A DNA stretch of 64,000 nt, from NCBI GenBank assembly GCA_905221605.1, contig CAJNDS010001657.1, positions 1 to 64,000 of the forward strand. The letters run 5' to 3'. The stretch is from Symbiodinium natans (taxonomy: Eukaryota > Sar > Dinophyceae > Suessiales > Symbiodiniaceae). A model generated the notes under the pieces. That model saw only the letters and a list, made by a program, of their open reading frames with translations. It had not been told where the DNA came from and searched no databases. Shown here piece after piece: positions 13,209 through 41,090 of the stretch. Within the stretch, counting starts at the first letter, position 1, and every line of letters starts with the position of its first letter. The translations under genes and the position numbers were made by a program.

Positions 13209-13988
13209 CTAGGTGTCCTCTGACCCTAAACAAAGAAGCACATCGCATTCCTGCTTCGGTGCATGCAAACAGGGGCTGCGATTGTGAGCAGGTGAATGCT
13301 TGTGGCTGAAGGCTTTCAAGCTCTGGCCTCTGCTTCTCGAGGCCGGTTCGATGCCAACGATGTCGTGGAGCGCATCTTCACCAGAGCCTGTGACCCAGAG
13401 CTTACTCAGCAACAGACTCCCACACTCTGAGCCTGTCAGGCACGAACATGTGAAGTGCTTCGCATGCTGCCTCGCCCTGAGCCCCGCCTTCTCGCTGCTC
13501 AATTCTTTAGCCACAGCGGTTGCAATCTGCATGGAAGTCTTTTCTCTGCAGTCTAGATAGACAAGCGATGGTGGCAGCTTCATGTGGACAAGGGCCTGGC
13601 CCACCCCCTGTTGATCATGGGGATGATTTTCACCGAAGGGGGGCTGTGGAGGGTAGGTCTCTTCCACTCGCAGGGGAAGCACGTCGATGTCGTTGTCCAG
13701 CGAGTAGCGAAGCTCCTTGTGCGAGGAGTACTGTGACGATGTCATCTCGGCGTAGTCCGCTGTGCAGACTGCCAGCATGACTCCATTCTCTTCTTTGACT
13801 TGGTGCAGGTACTTCAACGTCAAGTCACCAAAGTCGTCGCCCGCACTTGCCTGGACAACTAGAACCCTGTAGTTGCGCTCTGCCAGGATCTTCTGCACAC
13901 TTCGCATCTGCATCTCTACTGGCCCACCATTAAATCTCGCGGAGATCATGGCCAGACGAGAGCCGGAGCCATCTGGGATACTGCTCGC
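13209..13988 (-). CDS. TIR-like domain exon, copy 2
   Basis: Starts after acceptor-like GCCAG with ASSIPDGSGSRLAMISARF and runs 259 codons. It has the same TIR-like plan as copy 1: strand A, helix (MQMRSVQKILAERNYR), loop ASAGDDFGD, strand C VMLAVCTADYAE, then SSQYSSHKELRYSLD with the putative catalytic Glu, and LPLRVEETYPP. From SSQYSS to HAKHFTCSC the two copies are nearly identical, while their first halves differ at many residues. It continues about 80 residues beyond the copy 1 stop, with a Ser/His-rich, featureless tail. The donor site may lie before the ORF end, so part of that tail could be intron. Function as a TIR signalling protein or NADase is inference. Confidence 0.6.
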   Translation of the reverse strand, partial: ASSIPDGSGSRLAMISARFNGGPVEMQMRSVQKILAERNYRVLVVQASAGDDFGDLTLKYLHQVKEENGVMLAVCTADYAEMTSSQYSSHKELRYSLDNDIDVLPLRVEETYPPQPPFGENHPHDQQGVGQALVHMKLPPSLVYLDCREKTSMQIATAVAKELSSEKAGLRARQHAKHFTCSCLTGSECGSLLLSKLWVTGSGEDALHDIVGIEPASRSRGQSLKAFSHKHSPAHNRSPCLHAPKQECDVLLCLGSEDT

Positions 13989-15125
13989 CTGGCACGAGTC
14001 CGATTTGCTAGATTAGGGTAGGGAAATGAAAGGGCGGAAAGACACCAGGGCGACCGAACGCTTCACTGCACAAACACACCCCAAATTCCTGACCTAAACG
14101 TGGCTGGCAAGTCCTGGGCTTTGGCATCCTCGAATTCAGGCACCTCAAAATGCGAGATTTTGGACCTCAATAAAAATGATACTGCTGCTTCCGGGACCAG
14201 GTCCCCATGGAGACCAAGCCGAGAGCAGCACGACACGCTGCTTGCGCTTGCACAAGCACCAAACCAAGAAGCAGCAGGATACCAGGAGGCAAGTGGACCT
14301 GGAGTCTTGCTGCAACATCACCGTGCCTGCAAATAGCGATCCCCCCAAAACTGCTTAGCTGGAAGAACATGCCTTCACAACCATGCATTTGCGATGGTTC
14401 CCAGCACCTCGATAAGCCCGGCCAGGCCTTGCCTAGGCCTCTGCAGCTGAGGGGCAGCGAGGATATGACCACGACGACAGCGACATCTGCCTCGCAGCAG
14501 ACTTTCAAATCGTGAAAGGAAAGTTTTCTCAGATCAAGGCAGACACGGGGCCTTGTCCTGGCTCTCGCTTTCGCCATCGGCCTGGAGAGCCAAAATCTTT
14601 GACAGATCTTCTTCGCCCTGACAGACTCAACAACACTTCGCCCCAACCATCTAATTCATGCTGTACCAACAGAATCCTCGGCGCAAGTACCGCAAACAGC
14701 AACCGATTGACAGGTTGGCCTCCTGGTCGTCCACTTCCTGCCAGGGAAAAGTGGTCGGGCAAGGCCTTTCTCAGGCCTTATGCTGATTCTTGGCCTCTCC
14801 TTTGAAGCCCCACCTCCCCCAACTTCCTGGCAGCTTTCTGCACCCATAGTTTTTACCCAGATTGTCCCTTGGCCTCACGAGCCGCTGGATGATGTCTCTG
14901 AACTCTGGCGAATTGCCGACACGAAGAGAATTCCGAATTCACTTCAACATGGTCTGCTGGCTACAGGATCTGCCCAGTCGGGCGTTATACGAGAGATTGG
15001 TTTGGTCCTAGTTCTGCACCCATAGCAAGAGCCATCGTCATAGACTGTGAGGGTGAGTACCCAAGAAGAGTGCGTTGTTCGGGGCTTGCGCTGTTTCTTG
15101 GGGTCTCCTTCCCACCCACACCGCC
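13989..15125. other. No recognisable gene
   Basis: Upstream flank of TIR copy 2. A 159-codon minus-strand ORF (14167-14646) with a hydrophobic stretch (PPGILLLLGLVLVQA) could contain an exon, but no domain is recognised. Confidence 0.35.
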
Positions 15126-25512: not shown

Positions 25513-25571
25513 TCACTCTGATGCTCTCCTGCTACAGGCCTCGATGGTGGTTGTGCCAGCACTGCTAGTAC

Positions 25572-25608
<37 letters not shown>

Positions 25609-26412
25609 AGTCGCGGCGCCAGCGACGCTGCTCGTAGTAGTGCTGCGGATAGTGGCAGTACCGGTGCAGCTGCGGGTAGTGGCAGTAGCAGTGCTGCCGG
25701 TGGTCGTGGCAGTGCCAGTGCTGGTGGTACGAGTGCTAGTGCTGGTGCTGCTGCTGGTGCTGGTGCTGGTGCTGGTGGTGGTGGTGGTGGTGCTGCTGCT
25801 GCTGGTGGTAGTCGCGGCGCCAGCGACGCTGCTCGTAGTAATGCTGCGGATAGTGGCAGCACCGGTGCTGCTGCGGGTAGTGGCAGTAGCAGTACTGCTG
25901 GTGGTGCTGGTGGTCGTGGCAGTGCCAGTGCTGGTGGTGGTGGTGGTACGAGTGCTAGTGCTGGTGCTGGTGCTGCTGCTGCTGGTGGCAGTCGCGGTGC
26001 CAGCGATGCTGCTCGTAGTAGTGCTGCGGATAGTGGCAGTACCGGTGCTGCTGCGGGTAGTGGCAGTAGCAGTGCTGTTGGTGGTCGTGCCAGTGCCAGT
26101 GCTGGTGGTGGTAGTGGTGGTCGTGGTCGTGGTGGTGGTGCTAGTGGTCGTGGCGGTACCGGTGCTGCTGCTGGTGGAAGTGCTGGATGTACTGGTAGAA
26201 GAGGTCGACGTGCTTGTCGCGCTGGAAGATGAACTGGTCGTGGATGTTGTGCTCAAAGACGTACTTGTGGCAGAAGTGCTAGATGTACGTGTTGATGAAG
26301 TCGACGTGCTGGTTGTAGATATGGACGCGGTGGTTGTGGAACTCTTTGAAGCGCTTGTGCTTGTGGCCGTCTGGCGGCGGACACGCTTTACAGAATCCAG
26401 GTGGTGTTAAAA
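25513..26412 (-). CDS. Ser/Thr-rich low-complexity ORF on a trinucleotide repeat
   Basis: About 300 codons open on the minus strand, starting after a stop near 26412 with a short mixed sequence (SVKRVRRQTATSTSAS) and then almost only Ser, Thr, Ala and Gly. At DNA level it is an AGC/ACC-type trinucleotide array with a higher-order period of about 200-230 bases (shared blocks at about 25610, 25815 and 25990). Such Ser/Thr tracts can be O-glycosylated stalks of surface proteins, and the ORF sits on the same strand as the kelch gene upstream and the cysteine-rich gene downstream. The opposite strand is equally open (Val/Leu-rich, 301 codons), so translation is uncertain. Confidence 0.35.
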
Positions 26413-26695: not shown

Positions 26696-29600
26696 CTACA
26701 CGGCCTCAGTGTCCAAGGACCGAAGGTCGTTCGGGTAGCCTCGGCCGCAGCACCGCTCTCAAAATCCCTCCGCTCGCTCAACAAGCATGCAAGAATCGCC
26801 GAGGACCTGACCGCTGCCATCGAGTCCGCCGAACACCCACATCTCCCCGGCTGTGGTAACCACAGCGGCGTGATACATCCGGGCACTGGGCGAAGTGCCA
26901 CCAGGGCTCCTGTCCACCCACGTGGGCGTTGCAGCCTGCCAGCAGAGAAGGCAGAGCTCGCCGCAACACAGGGCGACTCGAGGGTGCCTGCATGGGGGCT
27001 GGCGCCCTCCATTAACAGCTCCAGATGCGCAAAAAAACACATCAAGCAGCAACGATGTGACGGGCACCGCAAGGTTGAGATGAAGCGCTGTAGAGGGGAA
27101 GCTGTGTAGCAAATGCCAGACATCGCATTCTGCTCGCTCTCGAAATTTCCCTTGAAAACGGTATTTCTCCATGACGCATGCTTTGCAGCTTTGGGCCTAC
27201 CTTGCTGAAGCCTTTGGAAGGCGCAATTCGAGACCAACTTGAACCCTCGAATGCCACCTAGAATCCCTAATTGGGGTTTGCACATTTTTGCACCATTTCC
27301 ACCCTGCATCCCGGCAGGCCCTCACATGTGTGATGAACCTTGGAGAATTTCAGAAACTGCGATGGCCACCCTGATCCATGCCTGGGTGTCCAAGGACCAA
27401 AGGTCATTCAGCCTGGGGCCTCGGCCGCAGCACTGCTCTCAAAATCCCTCAGCTCGCTCAACAAGCATGCAAGAATCGCCGAGGATCTGGCCAGCGTGTC
27501 CGCCGAACACCCACATCTCCCCGGCTGTGGTAACCACAGCGGAGTGACCATACCGGGCACTGGGCGAAGTGCCACCAGGGCTCCTGTCCACCCACGTGGG
27601 CGTTGCAGCCTGCCAGCAGAAAAGGCAGTGCTCACCGCAACACAAGGCGACTCGAGGGTGCCTGCATGGGGGCTGGCGCCCTCCATTAACAGCTCCAGAT
27701 GCGCAAAAAACACACATCAAGCAGCAACGATGCGACGGGCACCGCTACTCCGACGTGGCTCAAACAACGCTCCGATAACACGGGTCACCTCCCGCAAGGC
27801 TGGGATGAAGCGCTGTAGAAGGGAAGCTGCATAGCAAATGCCAGACATCGCATCGCATTCTACCTTGCTGAAGCCTTTGGAAGGCGCAATTCGAGACCAA
27901 CTTGGCTTCAAACTTATGTTCCCTCGAATGCCACCTAGAATCCCTAATTGGGATTTACACATTTTTGCACCATTTCCACCCTGCATCCCGGCAGGCCCTG
28001 CACATGTGTGATGAACCTTGGAGAATTTCAGAAACTGCGATGGCCACCCTGATCCATGCCTGGGTGTCCAAGGACCAAAGGTCATTCAGGAAGCCTCAGC
28101 CGCAGCACTGCTCTCAAAATCCCTCCGCTCGCTCAACAAGCATGCAAGAATCGCCGAGGACCGAACTGCTGCCATCGTATCCGCCGAACACCCACATCTC
28201 CCCGGCTGTGGTAACCACGGCGGAGTGACGAGACCGGGCACTGGGCGAAGTGCCACTAGGGCTCCTGTCCACCCACGTGGGCGTTGCAGCCTGCCAGCAG
28301 AGAAGGCAGAGCTCGCCGCAACACAGGGCGACTCGAGGGTGCCTGCGGCTGGCGCCTTCCATTAACAGCTCCAGATGCGCAAAAAAACACATCAAGCAGC
28401 AACGATGTGACGGGCACCGCTACTCCGACGTGGCTCAAACAACGCTCCGATAACACGGGTCACCTCCCGCAAGGTTGAGATGAAGCGCTGTAGAGGGGAA
28501 GCTGTGTAGCAAATGCCAGACATCGCATTCTGCTCGCTCTCGAAATTTCCCTTGAAAACGGTATTTCTCCATGACGCATGCTTTGCAGCTTTGGGCCTAC
28601 CTTGCTGAAGCCTTTGGAAGGCGCAATTCGAGACCAACTTGAACCCTCGAATGCCACCTAGAATCCCTAATTGGGGTTTGCACATTTTTGCACCATTTCC
28701 ACCCTGCATCCCGGCAGGCCCTCACATGTGTGATGAACCTTGGAGAATTTCAGAAACTGCGATGGCCACCCTGATCCATGCCTGGGTGTCCAAGGACCAA
28801 AGGTCATTCTGCCTGCCTCGGCCGCAGCACTGCTCTCAAAATCCCTCCGCTCTCTCAACAAGCATGCAAGAATCGCCGAGGACCTGGCTGCTATTGTCTC
28901 CGCCGAACACCCACATCTCCCCGGCTGTGGTAACCACAGCGGAGTGAAAATACCGGGCACTGGGCGAAGTGCCACTAGGGCTCCTGTCCACCCACGTGGG
29001 CGTTGCAGCCTGCCAGCAGAGAAGGCAGAGCTCGCCGCAACACAGGGCGACTCGAGGGTGCCTGCGGCTGGCGCCTTCCATTAACAGCTCCAGATGCGCA
29101 AAAAAACACATCAAGCAGCAACGATGTGACGGGCACCGCTACTCCGACGTGGCTCAAACAACGCTCCGATAACACGGGTCACCTCCCGCAAGGTTGAGAT
29201 GAAGCGCTGTAGAGGGGAAGCTGTGTAGCAAATGCCAGACATCGCATTCTGCTCGCTCTCGAAATTTCCCTTGAAAACGGTATTTCTCCATGACGCATGC
29301 TTTGCAGCTTTGGGCCTACCTTGCTGAAGCCTTTGGAATGCGCAATTCGAGACCAACTTGGCTTTCAACTTATGTTCCCTCGAATGCCACCTAGAATCCC
29401 TAATTGGGGGGTTCACACATTTTTGCACCATTTCCGCCCTGCATCCCGGCAGGCCCTCACATGTGTGATGAACCCTGGAGAATTTCAGAAACTGTGACGG
29501 CCACCCTGATCCATGCCTGGGTGTCCAAGGACCAAAGGTCATTCAGCCTGGGGCCTCGGCCGCAGCACTGCTCTCAAAATCCCTCAGCTCGCTCAACAAG

Positions 29601-30476
29601 CATGCAAGAATCGCCGAGGATCTGGCCAGCGTGTCCGCCGAACACCCACATCTCCCCGGCTGTGGTAACCACAGCGGAGTGATATTGCCGGGCACTGGGC
29701 GAAGTGCCACTAGGGCTCCTGTCCACCCACGTGGGCGTTGCAGCCTGCCAGCAGAGAAGGCAGAGCTCGCCGCAACACAGGGCGACTCGAGGGTGCCTGC
29801 GGCTGGCGCCTTCCATTAACAGCTCCAGATGCGCAAGAAAACACATCAAGCAGCAACGATGTGACGGGCACCGCTACTCCGACGTGGCTCAAACAACGCT
29901 CCGATAACACGGGTCACCTCCCGCAAGGTTGAGATGAAGCGCTGTAGAGGGGAAGCTGTGTAGCAAATGCCAGACATCGCATTCTGCTCGCTCTCGAAAT
30001 TTCCCTTGAAAACGGTATTTCTCCATGACGCATGCTTTGCAGCTTTGGGCCTACCTTGCTGAAGCCTTTTCAATGCACAATTCGAGAAGCGGATGAAGCA
30101 GTTGTCCAACTTAGCTTCGAACTTCTGTACCCTCGAATGTCACCTAGAAGCCCGATTGGAGTTTGCACTATTTCCGCCCTGCATCCCGGCAGGATGAACC
30201 TTGGAGAATTTCAGAAACTGTGACGGCCACCCTGATCCATGCCTGGGTGTCCAAGGACCAAAGGTCATTCAAAAAGGGGCCTCGGCCGCAGCACCGCTCT
30301 CAAAATCCCTCCGCTCGCTCAACAAGCATGCAAGAATCGCCGAGGACCGAACTGCTGCCATCGTATCCGCCGAACACCCACATCTCCCCGGCTGTAGTAA
30401 GCACAGCGGAGTGACTATGCCGGGCACTGGGCGAAGTGCCACTAGGGCTCCTGTTCACCCAGGTGAATGTTGTGGC
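26696..30476 (-). repeat. Six tandem exon-intron units, 674-735 bp each, one kelch blade per unit
   Basis: Unit starts, taken at the acceptor-like GGCAG|GCTGCAACG on the minus strand, lie at 30476 (variant GCCACAACATT), 29744, 29009, 28290, 27609 and 26935. Coding and intron parts are nearly identical between units 1-5. Differences are mostly small intron indels, for example a 72-base segment missing from unit 2, and three short variable segments in the coding parts. This is an internal tandem duplication of whole exon-intron units. Confidence 0.9.
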
Positions 30477-30699
30477 CTGGCGGCTCGAGCGTCCAAAAAT
30501 CGGTCAGAGCTGCAAACATGTCCGAATCCCCTCTTGCAGCCTGCAGTCCCACAAAGATGTCAACAGACGGGCAGTAGCCTTGAAGAAGAATATGCCCAAG
30601 AAAAATCCACTGCCCGTCCACGTGTGATAACAATAGGAGAATTGGGTTCGGGATCCTGCCTGAGGACAATAATGGAAAACAATTGGAAGCAATGGGCAA
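26696..30699 (-). CDS. Kelch-repeat (beta-propeller) protein, six tandem blades
   Basis: Each unit codes TPTWVDRSPSGTSPSAR, two variable residues, HSAVVTTAGEMWVFGG and a variable loop, then, about 75 bases on, a variable start to NDLWSLDTQ. This matches the kelch pattern (double Gly, later Trp, Ar-x-x-His before the strand). Joining GG-loop to NDLWSLDT requires removing a short segment containing an in-frame TGA; GT or GC donors with a GAG|GC acceptor fit in phase. An AG|GC donor after SLDTQ joins in phase to the next AG|GCTGCAACG acceptor. The last blade ends NDLRSLDTEAV and a stop at 26696-26698. An upstream exon (about 30484-30550) has LTDFWTLE, half a blade, but meets unit 6 out of frame. 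Six blades would close a propeller, a binding scaffold. No BTB, F-box or other partner domain was found; 5' exons may lie beyond 30.7 kb. Binding partner is unknown. Confidence 0.65.
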
Positions 30700-32718: not shown

Positions 32719-32936
32719 TACGGGGGGCAACCGAAGGAGGACAGGGAACAAAACAGTCAACCCCAACAGAAGCCCTTGATCCCCTGGACCAACCAACAAC
32801 AAACCAACCCAAAACACCAAGCACCCTTTCTTCTCTAGGCGCATGGCCCGATCTTGAGCCAAAATGGTAGCGGGTACATTGACCCCTTTATCCTTCTACA
32901 CCAACTTTTTCCTTCAATACAAATTGCAGCTCCGCA
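32719..32936 (-). repeat. 3' LTR of the copia element
   Basis: Same 218 bases as the 5' LTR. Absence of visible differences points to a recent insertion, since the two LTRs are copied from one template and diverge afterwards. Confidence 0.92.
32853..32873 (-). promoter_or_regulatory. Dinoflagellate spliced-leader-like sequence in 3' LTR
   Basis: Same motif, at the same offset, in the second LTR. Confidence 0.75.
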
Positions 32937-32946
32937 CTCCCCCTGT
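32937..32946 (-). other. Polypurine tract
   Basis: Sense strand ACAGGGGGAG abuts the 3' LTR, the expected position for plus-strand priming. Confidence 0.75.
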
Positions 32947-37811: not shown

Positions 37812-38029
37812 TACGGGGGGCAACCGAAGGAGGACAGGGAACAAAACAGTCAACCCCAACAGAAGCCCTTGATCCCCTGGACCAACCAACAACAAACCAA
37901 CCCAAAACACCAAGCACCCTTTCTTCTCTAGGCGCATGGCCCGATCTTGAGCCAAAATGGTAGCGGGTACATTGACCCCTTTATCCTTCTACACCAACTT
38001 TTTCCTTCAATACAAATTGCAGCTCCGCA
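37812..38029 (-). repeat. 5' LTR of the copia element
   Basis: Reads TGCGGAGC...CCCCCCGTA on the minus strand. It appears identical to 32719-32936. The 3' end is TA instead of the usual CA. Contains a spliced-leader-like motif at 37946-37966. Confidence 0.92.
37946..37966 (-). promoter_or_regulatory. Dinoflagellate spliced-leader-like sequence in 5' LTR
   Basis: On the element's sense strand this reads CCGCTACCATTTTGGCTCAAG (plus-strand start 37946). It differs from the published leader CCGTAGCCATTTTGGCTCAAG only at positions 4-6; the final 15 bases are identical. It sits about 64 bases inside the LTR start, a plausible place for the RNA 5' end (start of R). Confidence 0.75.
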
Positions 38030-38185
38030 CCCTAAACCCGAAACCCTAAACCTTAAGTCTTAAACCTCAAACCCTAAGGGGGGGGGGGGGGTATGATCTT
38101 AGTACCCATTGGGGGGGGGGGGTAGGGGGGGGGGGCCCGCCGGGGCTGAACCATATATGCTCACCCCCCCCCCCCCCCCATGATC
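38030..38185. repeat. Telomere-like tract, then poly-G/poly-C runs
   Basis: 38030-38077 continues the CCCTAAA array interrupted by the LTR element (CCCTAAACCCGAAACCC). Then G runs of 13, 14 and 11 bases and a C run of 18 at 38164-38180. Confidence 0.85.
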
Positions 38186-39609: not shown

Positions 39610-40135
39610 CGTCGGTGGCGGGCGGACGGACCACCGTCACGGCCCCACGGACCACCACCACGGACCACCACCACGCACCACCGCCACGGGACCACCACCA
39701 CGGACGTCCACCACGGACCACCACTACGGGACCACCGCCACGGAGCACCACCACGGGACCACCACCACGGGACCACCACCGCGGGACCACACCATGGGAT
39801 CACCACTACGGGACCGCCACCACGGGACCACCACCACGGACCCCACTTAGAACCACCACCACGGCCCACCACACGGACCACCACCACCACGGGACCACCG
39901 GACTACCACTACGGGCCATGGACCACCACTACGGGACCACCACCACAGGACCGCCAGGACCACCGCCACCACCACCACGGGCACGGGACCACCACCGCGG
40001 ACAACCACCTGCAACCACCACCACGGACCACCACCACGGGACCATTTATGGGACCACCACCACGGCCGACCACCACGGACCACCACTACGGGACCACCAC
40101 CACGGACCCCAACGGACCACCACCACGGGGCACCA
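39610..40135. repeat. GGACCACCACCAC minisatellite
   Basis: About forty irregular units of GGACCACCACCACGG and variants. All frames on both strands stay open over long distances because the unit lacks stop codons; the predicted His/Thr-rich or Trp/Gly-rich ORFs are not credible genes. Confidence 0.92.
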
Positions 40136-41090
40136 CCTGTGGAGTTCCCCCTTAGCTTGACGGATTCGGAACGCCGCGGAATGCCACGTAGAACGCCACG
40201 GCGGCGTGTGTCCTGTGGAGTTTCCCCTTAGCTTGACAGATGCGGAACGCCAAGTGGAACGCCACGTGGAACGCCACGGCGGCGCGCGTCCTGTGGAGTT
40301 CCCCCTTAGCTTGACGGATTCGGAACACCGCGGAACGCCACGTCGAACGCCACGGCGGCACGCGTCCCGTGCAGTTCCCCCTTAGCTTGACGGATTCGGA
40401 ACGCCGCGGAACGCCGCGTGGAACGCCACGGAGGCGCGCGTCCTGTGGAGTTCCCCCTTAGCTTGACGGATTCGGAACGCTACAGAACGCCACGTCGGCG
40501 CGCGTCCTGTGGAGTTTCCCCCTTAGCTTGACGGATTCGGAACGCTACGGAACGCCGCGCCCTGTGGAATTCCGGAACACTACGGAACGCCGCGTCGGCG
40601 CGCGTCCTGTGGAATTCCCCCTTAGCTTCACGGATTCGGAACGCGACGGAGCGCCGCGTCGGCCGCGCGTCCTGTGGAGTTCCCCCTTAGCTTGACGGAC
40701 TCGGAACGCTACGGAACGCCGCGTCGGCGCGCCTCCCGTGGATTTCCCCCTTAGCTTGACGGATTCGGAACGCTACGGAACGCCGCGTCGGCGCGCGCCC
40801 TGTGGAATTCCCCCTTAGCTTGACGGATTCGGAACGCGACGGAGCGCCGCGTCGGCGCGCGTCCTGTGGAGTTCCCCCTTAGCTTGACGGATTTGGAACG
40901 CTGCGGAACGCCGCGTCGGCGCGCGTCCTGTGGAATTCCCCCTTAGCTTCACGGATTCGGAACGCCACGCAACGCCGCGTCGGCGCGCGTCCTGTGGAAT
41001 TCCCCCTTAGCTTGACGGATTCGGAACACCACGGAACGCTGCGTCGGCGCGCGTCCTGTGGACTTCCCCCTTAACAGCACGCGTTACGCC
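40136..41090. repeat. Tandem satellite, 60-80-bp units
   Basis: About fourteen copies of a unit containing TTCCCCCTTAGCTTGACGG, ATTCGGAACGC and GCGTCCTGTGGA. Early units (40136-40440) are about 75-85 bases, later ones 63-65, owing to an extra AACGCCACG segment in the early ones. Confidence 0.92.

Follow-up and report, generated by a model that had tools for sequence, protein, structure and literature searches.

Six near-identical kelch units in Symbiodinium natans and a predicted propeller face that is likely kept diverse

The dinoflagellate Symbiodinium natans carries a tandem array of six kelch units in which introns and framework are near-constant while three short segments differ strongly from unit to unit. 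We consider it probable on balance that the units form a predicted six-bladed propeller, with one face likely kept diverse by selection for varied partners. Each blade has its own introns, and the array thus holds a near-neutral internal clock that intronless repeat arrays lack. With this clock, a single gene suffices to measure selection on a repeat face. Should strains prove to differ in their loops or unit number, the array would become a candidate that can be tested for a part in recognizing self and non-self, prey or symbionts. Dinoflagellates include symbionts, parasites and bloom formers.

Layout of the array and its predicted protein

Six tandem units, near-identical even in their introns, can be delimited by reading frame and kelch pattern on the minus strand at 30476-26696 of the window (the whole 64,000-nucleotide stretch analyzed here). 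Units are named B1 to B6 in transcription order. Each has an exon A of 130-136 nt, an intron 1 of 60 nt, and an exon B of 44-50 nt. An intron 2 of 434-495 nt follows exon B in five of the six units; the last unit has no intron 2. Three segments are named for their position: V1 is the codon pair after Ala-Arg, V2 the b-c loop, and V3 the residues just before NDLW.

All coordinates of the units are on the minus strand. Unit B1 (30231-30476) comprises exon A at 30476-30341, intron 1 at 30340-30281, and exon B at 30280-30231; it carries the pair HS (30419-30414), the loop YDGSSS, and the pre-NDLW residues PFL. In B2 (29505-29744), exon A spans 29744-29615, intron 1 29614-29555, and exon B 29554-29505, with pair QY, loop HAGQ, and pre-NDLW PRL. 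B3 (28770-29009) has exon A at 29009-28877, intron 1 at 28876-28817, exon B at 28816-28770, pair YF, loop DNSSQ, and pre-NDLW RQ. For B4 (28048-28290), the corresponding positions are 28290-28155, 28154-28095, and 28094-28048, and the segments read SR, YDGSSS, and FL. B5 (27370-27609; 27609-27480, 27479-27420, and 27419-27370) reads YG, HAGQ, and PRL. B6 (26696-26935) has exon A at 26935-26800, intron 1 at 26799-26740, and a last exon at 26739-26696 that includes the stop codon; its segments are MY, LDGSGQ, and YP. This stop lies a few residues past strand c, as it does in the Symbiodinium relative P0121.

Reading frame and kelch pattern also set the ends of both introns. On that basis, the five copies of intron 2 (30230-29745, 29504-29010, 28769-28291, 28047-27610, and 27369-26936; 486, 495, 479, 438, and 434 nt) would be GT-AG introns in phase 0, and the six copies of intron 1 (within 26740-30340; 60 nt each) would be GC-AG. 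Every copy of intron 1 holds an in-frame TGA, so the kelch frame stays open only with intron 1 removed. All 12 exons are open, the putative splice ends are kept in every unit, and the joined exons give a predicted spliced protein of 362 residues. A probe of the window with intron 1 recovers the six units and no further copy, and an exact intron 1 probe finds no match in viral contigs. Inverted ends, CTCGGC ... GCCGAG, enclose intron 1 in five of six copies (GCTGAG in B4), and four of these bases are exonic. Intron 1, at 60 nt and GC-AG, might be an introner-type insertion.

Pfam profile matches bear out the first-pass annotation of these units as kelch. The predicted spliced protein matches PF24681 (E=6e-73; 245.2 bits, cut-off 50), PF01344 (123.4 bits, cut-off 20.1), and PF13415 (E=4.7e-48). 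By sequence, it also matches the LZTR1 kelch domain (E=8.4e-28), with KLHDC2 likewise among the top matches. A profile scan finds no BTB domain in the six-unit protein, upstream exons lying outside the query, and no NB-ARC or NACHT domain appears at E<=0.001 in nine proteins scanned from the window, upstream exons again lying outside the scan.

Judging from a relative's predicted model, V1 and V2 would lie on the same side of the propeller. Because splicing breaks the letter-for-letter correspondence between window and protein, the relative P0121 was modeled instead, aligned with 13 others (mean pLDDT 84.2, pTM 0.81); among PDB structures it matches the LZTR1 kelch domain best, and KLHDC2 also ranks high. 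In the four framed units of P0121, the two residues after Arg immediately precede the main stretch of strand a, and the segments from GG to the next strand fall between strands b and c. By propeller geometry, V1 and the loop between b and c would then share one face. In kelch propellers, d-a and b-c loops do share one face, and in KEAP1-type propellers the corresponding positions are those we take to line the ligand face. The proposal that the variable positions line such a face thus carries over as a statement about one face, through the predicted model of a relative and propeller geometry.

Loop divergence against a near-constant background

The differences between units are concentrated in the loops. 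As the first-pass annotation described, the codon pair after Ala-Arg is different in every one of the six units, and the loop after Phe-Gly-Gly is 18, 12, 15, 18, 12, and 18 bases long in transcription order. The start of the NDLW segment, given there as 5 or 8 bases, reads as two or three codons, a matter of where the boundary is drawn. Exon length changes are multiples of three, also as described; the indel runs of intron 2 include 1, 2, 5, 14, and 62. The annotation's reading that coding is under constraint is thereby supported. Pooled over 15 unit pairs, the loops differ at 160/396 bases (V1, 52/90; V2, 63/207; V3, 45/99), the framework at 121/2280, and intron 1 at 26/900; intron 2 differs at 173/4289 over 10 pairs. 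The introns are therefore as conserved as the exon framework, in agreement with the annotation. Per base, the difference is 0.029-0.040 in introns, 0.40 in loops, and 0.58 in the codon pair. The annotation had named an even spread of substitutions over exons and introns as the outcome that would tell against it; the alignment shows an excess in the loops instead.

Near-identity describes B2 to B5 best, where the framework differs at 1-3/153 bases. B1 and B6 are more diverged in framework (B1 versus B2-B5, 9-11/153; B6 versus the others, 12-21/150). Within B2-B5, columns vary at 16/24 in loops, 3/153 in framework, 3/60 in intron 1, and 26/367 in intron 2. Fisher tests of loop columns give P values of 2.8e-14 against framework and 2.6e-12 against introns (29/427), values that take columns as independent, which in mosaic units they are not. 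A scan of 6-nt windows points to the codon pair. Six different words occur in five of 212 such windows across the two exons and intron 1, and all five overlap V1. Over the whole unit in B1-B5, six of 524 windows are all-different, each overlapping V1. The scan takes gap-free windows only, which excludes the gapped ones at V2 and V3, with their unequal loop lengths.

We find the sharpest local contrast between B2 and B5. Four of the six V1 bases differ between these units, against 1/57 upstream and 0/177 downstream (1/234 flanking; Fisher P=5.5e-7, for a pair picked after the data were seen). Loop variants recur between units: V2 is common to B1 and B4, and V2 together with V3 is common to B2 and B5. 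Thus, V1 alone takes a different form in every unit.

Synonymous and nonsynonymous changes were compared by Nei and Gojobori counting, which has no recombination model and here draws on few sites in units that are not independent. For V1, pN is 0.725 and pS 0.088 across the six units (pN/pS 8.2). V2 has pN 0.327 and pS 0.216 (1.5), and V3 has pN 0.536 and pS 0.239 (2.2); with all loops pooled, pN is 0.466 and pS 0.193. In the framework, pN is 0.039 and pS 0.071 (0.55). The expectation of a dN/dS well above 1 at the loops is therefore borne out for V1, while the ratio is modest for V2 and V3, because their pS is raised. By the standard applied to the fungal HNWD family, the d-a loop codons (V1) show positive selection on simple counting, with a pN far above the intron value of 0.03-0.04. 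The b-c loop codons also have a pN far above the introns, yet their pS is raised too (0.216 and 0.239; small counts). With pS raised in V2 and V3, loops that are old and protected would explain the data no worse than rapid recent change. The comparison suggests that the loop variants in V2 and V3 may be older than the homogenized remainder.

The units look like mosaics. The first exon block (F1) puts B5 with B6 on one diagnostic base; in the b-c loop, intron 1, and exon B the same unit goes with B2 (0 differences), and its intron 2 goes with that of B3 (1/429). B1 has the b-c loop of B4 but groups with B6 by intron 1. Such a pattern is most naturally read as exchange between units, and the mosaic matches within the array are what concerted evolution, as defined for HNWD, would leave. 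The 48-nt framework between V1 and V2 (F2) is identical in B2, B3, and B5, even though B3 differs in V1 and V2. Homogenization thus seems to reach the framework but not the loops, whose escape is most simply put down to selection. The annotation had the units copied recently, with the loops changed afterwards or kept different. The likeness of the units agrees with this, but the mosaics and the raised pS speak against a simple order of copying and then change.

Origin and maintenance of the variable loops

An array of near-identical units, introns included, implies an origin by tandem copying. Unequal crossing-over or gene conversion has probably homogenized framework and introns while shuffling loop variants, a process that would account for the observed mosaic pattern. 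Selection probably favors different residues at V1 and the b-c loop, so that both escape homogenization; the excess of change over the introns is seen directly, and selection is its putative cause. By prediction, the blades are staggered against the units: the first strand of a unit is d of one blade, and its other three are a-c of the following blade. The first strand of B1 would then close the ring with B6 to make six blades. The protein may be secreted or on the cell surface, acting in recognition or capture. A secreted or surface location is likely given two of the nearest dinoflagellate relatives; the Symbiodinium proteins P0121 and P0030 begin with a hydrophobic, signal-peptide-like stretch, as judged by eye. 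A role in recognition is what we infer from where selection seems to act.

Four other explanations bear on the same pattern. The array could be old, with blades that diverged long ago and loops fixed for one constant, asymmetric partner under purifying selection on each blade, the rest having been homogenized later by gene conversion. The raised pS in V2 and V3, the mosaic flanks, and the six distinct codon pairs all agree with such a history. Reuse of b-c loop variants (B1 with B4, B2 with B5) would be unexpected if the role of each blade were fixed, and V1 differs between B2 and B5 beside 177 identical downstream nucleotides. We regard an old array as unlikely, if worth serious attention. 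Relaxed constraint, whereby loops tolerate change that the framework does not and nothing selects for difference, draws on the variation of loops and of the R-x-x-H pair in other kelch proteins with enough units. Free sequence should nevertheless change at the intron rate, which the loops and the codon pair exceed by far. If introns are near neutral, this clock rules out relaxed constraint as the sole cause, and we find it very improbable overall.

Targeted mutation, or templated copying from other loci such as donor genes or by a retroelement, could also write new loops, and multi-base clusters within 6 nt beside nearly untouched flanks are what it would produce. The intron 1 probe of the window returns the six units only, and the six codon pairs show no base bias by eye; we give this mechanism the least credence. 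The array might instead be decaying, a pseudogene expansion with a lost 5' end. Eight candidates for a 5' exon with a signal peptide lie between 36000 and 30476, none of them convincing, which would fit a partly decayed gene, and B1 and B6 are more diverged. On the other side stand the 12 of 12 open exons, indels in multiples of three, a framework pN/pS below 1 (0.55), and splice ends preserved in every unit, and decay seems improbable. Selection for a diverse face thus stays our preferred explanation.

Relatives, known systems and surroundings

The window array is more repetitive than its relatives. We detected 443 protein relatives at E<=0.001; among the best 120 of these, the top identity is ~40%. 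A profile search adds Symbiodinium and Cladocopium proteins (best 120 of 345; top identity ~40%). The window's own protein or a near ortholog is not among the matches listed, for which proteins longer than ~630 aa were not candidates. Mean blade identity in the window is 0.864 (range 0.82-0.935; five script-framed units), which passes the threshold for highly repetitive domains in PMC4986451, where the available text sets high internal conservation at >85% identity over at least 100 aa. On this measure, 161 scorable relatives have a median of 0.36 and a maximum of 0.748. P0053 reaches 0.78 on three units with alternative anchors and falls outside the top twelve with the main anchors.

The dinoflagellate relatives P0121 and P0030 and the eukprot protein P0012 share the pattern around R-x-x-H, MW-FGG, and NDLW with the array, and P0121 also has a similar end. 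These relatives differ in having more diverged blades where these were measured (P0012, mean identity 0.49); P0121 and P0030 yielded too few units for scoring. Distinct codon pairs are found in 4/4, 4/4, 6/6, 7/8, 7/9, 5/7, 3/4, and 6/6 units of eight comparators, which are of bacterial or other origin and include P0127 from Cladocopium. The full set held ten proteins, of which P0012 and P0129 yielded too few units, and one anchor-artifact row was removed from P0008 (6/6, not 7/7). V1 and the b-c loop are thus variable in kelch proteins at large, including P0122, whose blades are well diverged.

Bacterial repetitive kelch loci offer a second comparison. DNA of 47 loci gave 88 framed units and 109 pairs, with two or more units at 23 of the 47 loci; the anchors demand Arg and His around V1, and pairs whose strand a-b lengths were unequal were left out. 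Eight pairs with framework pS of 0.1-0.2 (0.16 for the bin) have a pN of 0.841 at V1 and 0.540 in the b-c loop. For eight pairs at 0.2-0.3 (0.27), the values are 0.569 and 0.485; for 48 pairs at 0.3-0.5 (0.395), 0.666 and 0.610; and for 45 pairs above 0.5 (0.619), 0.701 and 0.692. None of the 109 pairs has a framework pS below 0.1. Loop change exceeds synonymous change in the framework by a clear margin where pairs are least diverged, and by very little where they are most diverged. By title, 29 of the 47 loci come from Candidatus Eisenbacteria genomes, and the metagenome-assembled genome CAIXRL01 supplies 11.

The closest analogy is the sensor domain of the fungal HNWD family. In the accessible text of PMC1805685, the WD40 repeats of HNWD genes undergo concerted evolution and contain four codons under positive selection, two of them in the d-a loop and two in the b-c turn; these two loops lie on one face of WD40 propellers. 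WD40 repeats of high internal conservation are described for the HNWD/NWD receptors HET-D, HET-E, and HET-R in the available parts of PMC1805685, PMC12222747, PMC2873952, and PMC4986451. The array resembles these receptors in its tandem near-identical blades, in exchange between units, and in diversified residues of the d-a and b-c loops on one face; it is the use of the same two loops that makes the analogy close. It differs in being kelch rather than WD40, in having blades split over exons with near-identical introns, in varying a codon pair and loops of unequal length where HNWD has four single codons, and in showing no NLR part (upstream exons outside the scan). The array would therefore work like an HNWD sensor domain without being a member of that family, as the fold differs and the NLR part is not seen.

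More tentatively, and with more doubt than confidence, a dinoflagellate may have evolved a repertoire-making kelch receptor independently of fungi, with a homogenized scaffold that keeps its introns and a ligand face diversified and reshuffled in each blade, and the same rule in bacterial repetitive kelch proteins would then mark a general variable-face class. Were the bacterial parallel true, kelch would be a second propeller family, beside WD40, used for diversified recognition. The Kelch superfamily is named among highly repetitive beta-propellers in PMC9218822, and the array shares recently amplified blades with the propellers treated there; the parts of that paper covered here report no variable kelch face, and the words 'intron', 'hypervariable', and 'dinoflagellate' have 0 occurrences in its text. 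For related dinoflagellates, the accessible part of PMC10522408 reports mostly purifying selection on tandem-duplicated genes, which weighs against our preferred explanation. In the open-access literature searched (titles and abstract starts), we found no diversified kelch or propeller receptor for dinoflagellates and no such hypervariable or concerted-evolution kelch case. The annotation's claim of novelty accordingly holds, within these searches, for a dinoflagellate kelch array, but fungal WD40 receptors already provide a published case of the principle (PMC1805685), and repetitive kelch propellers are on record too (PMC9218822).

The kelch domains of LZTR1, KLHDC2, and KEAP1-type proteins have the same fold as its predicted protein. 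These domains have diverged blades and known partners. BTB-kelch proteins carry an N-terminal BTB domain, and none is seen in the six-unit protein, upstream exons lying outside the query. The designed SAKe propellers (PDB 7opu, 7onc, and 7ong) are kelch propellers found among the structure matches of P0121; they are man-made, not natural. Their six blades are reportedly identical by design.

Several other features lie in the window, which holds no tRNA and no Rfam family at the gathering threshold. Just upstream of B1, a minus-strand frame at 30480-30620 reads DGQWIFLGH ... ALTDFWTLEP, out of frame with B1, and faintly resembles an older blade. A long Ser/Thr-rich, low-complexity ORF at 25513-26406 (minus) starts ~290 bases past the stop codon of the array. 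This ORF was set aside as a stalk, reached by splicing out the B6 stop, since overlapping frames are open too and its complexity is low. The last blade of the relative P0129 is directly followed by a short Thr/Ser run that closes the protein.

Two direct repeats of 219 nt (32719-32937 and 37812-38030) are 100% identical and lie 5093 apart, with two minus-strand ORFs between them (862 and 545 aa). Situated ~2.2 kb upstream of B1, the bracketed segment has the appearance of a mobile element that inserted recently. The 862-aa ORF has no Pfam match; its relatives in ENA contigs are 93-95% identical over 14-54% of its length, and there is a weaker match in Symbiodinium KB8. A 267-aa ORF at 13209-14012 (minus) scores 20.1 bits for TIR_2, below the curated cut-off of 28, with nothing firm in NCBIfam. 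Tandem repeats are dense at 39645-41073; their periods include 13 and 64 nt.
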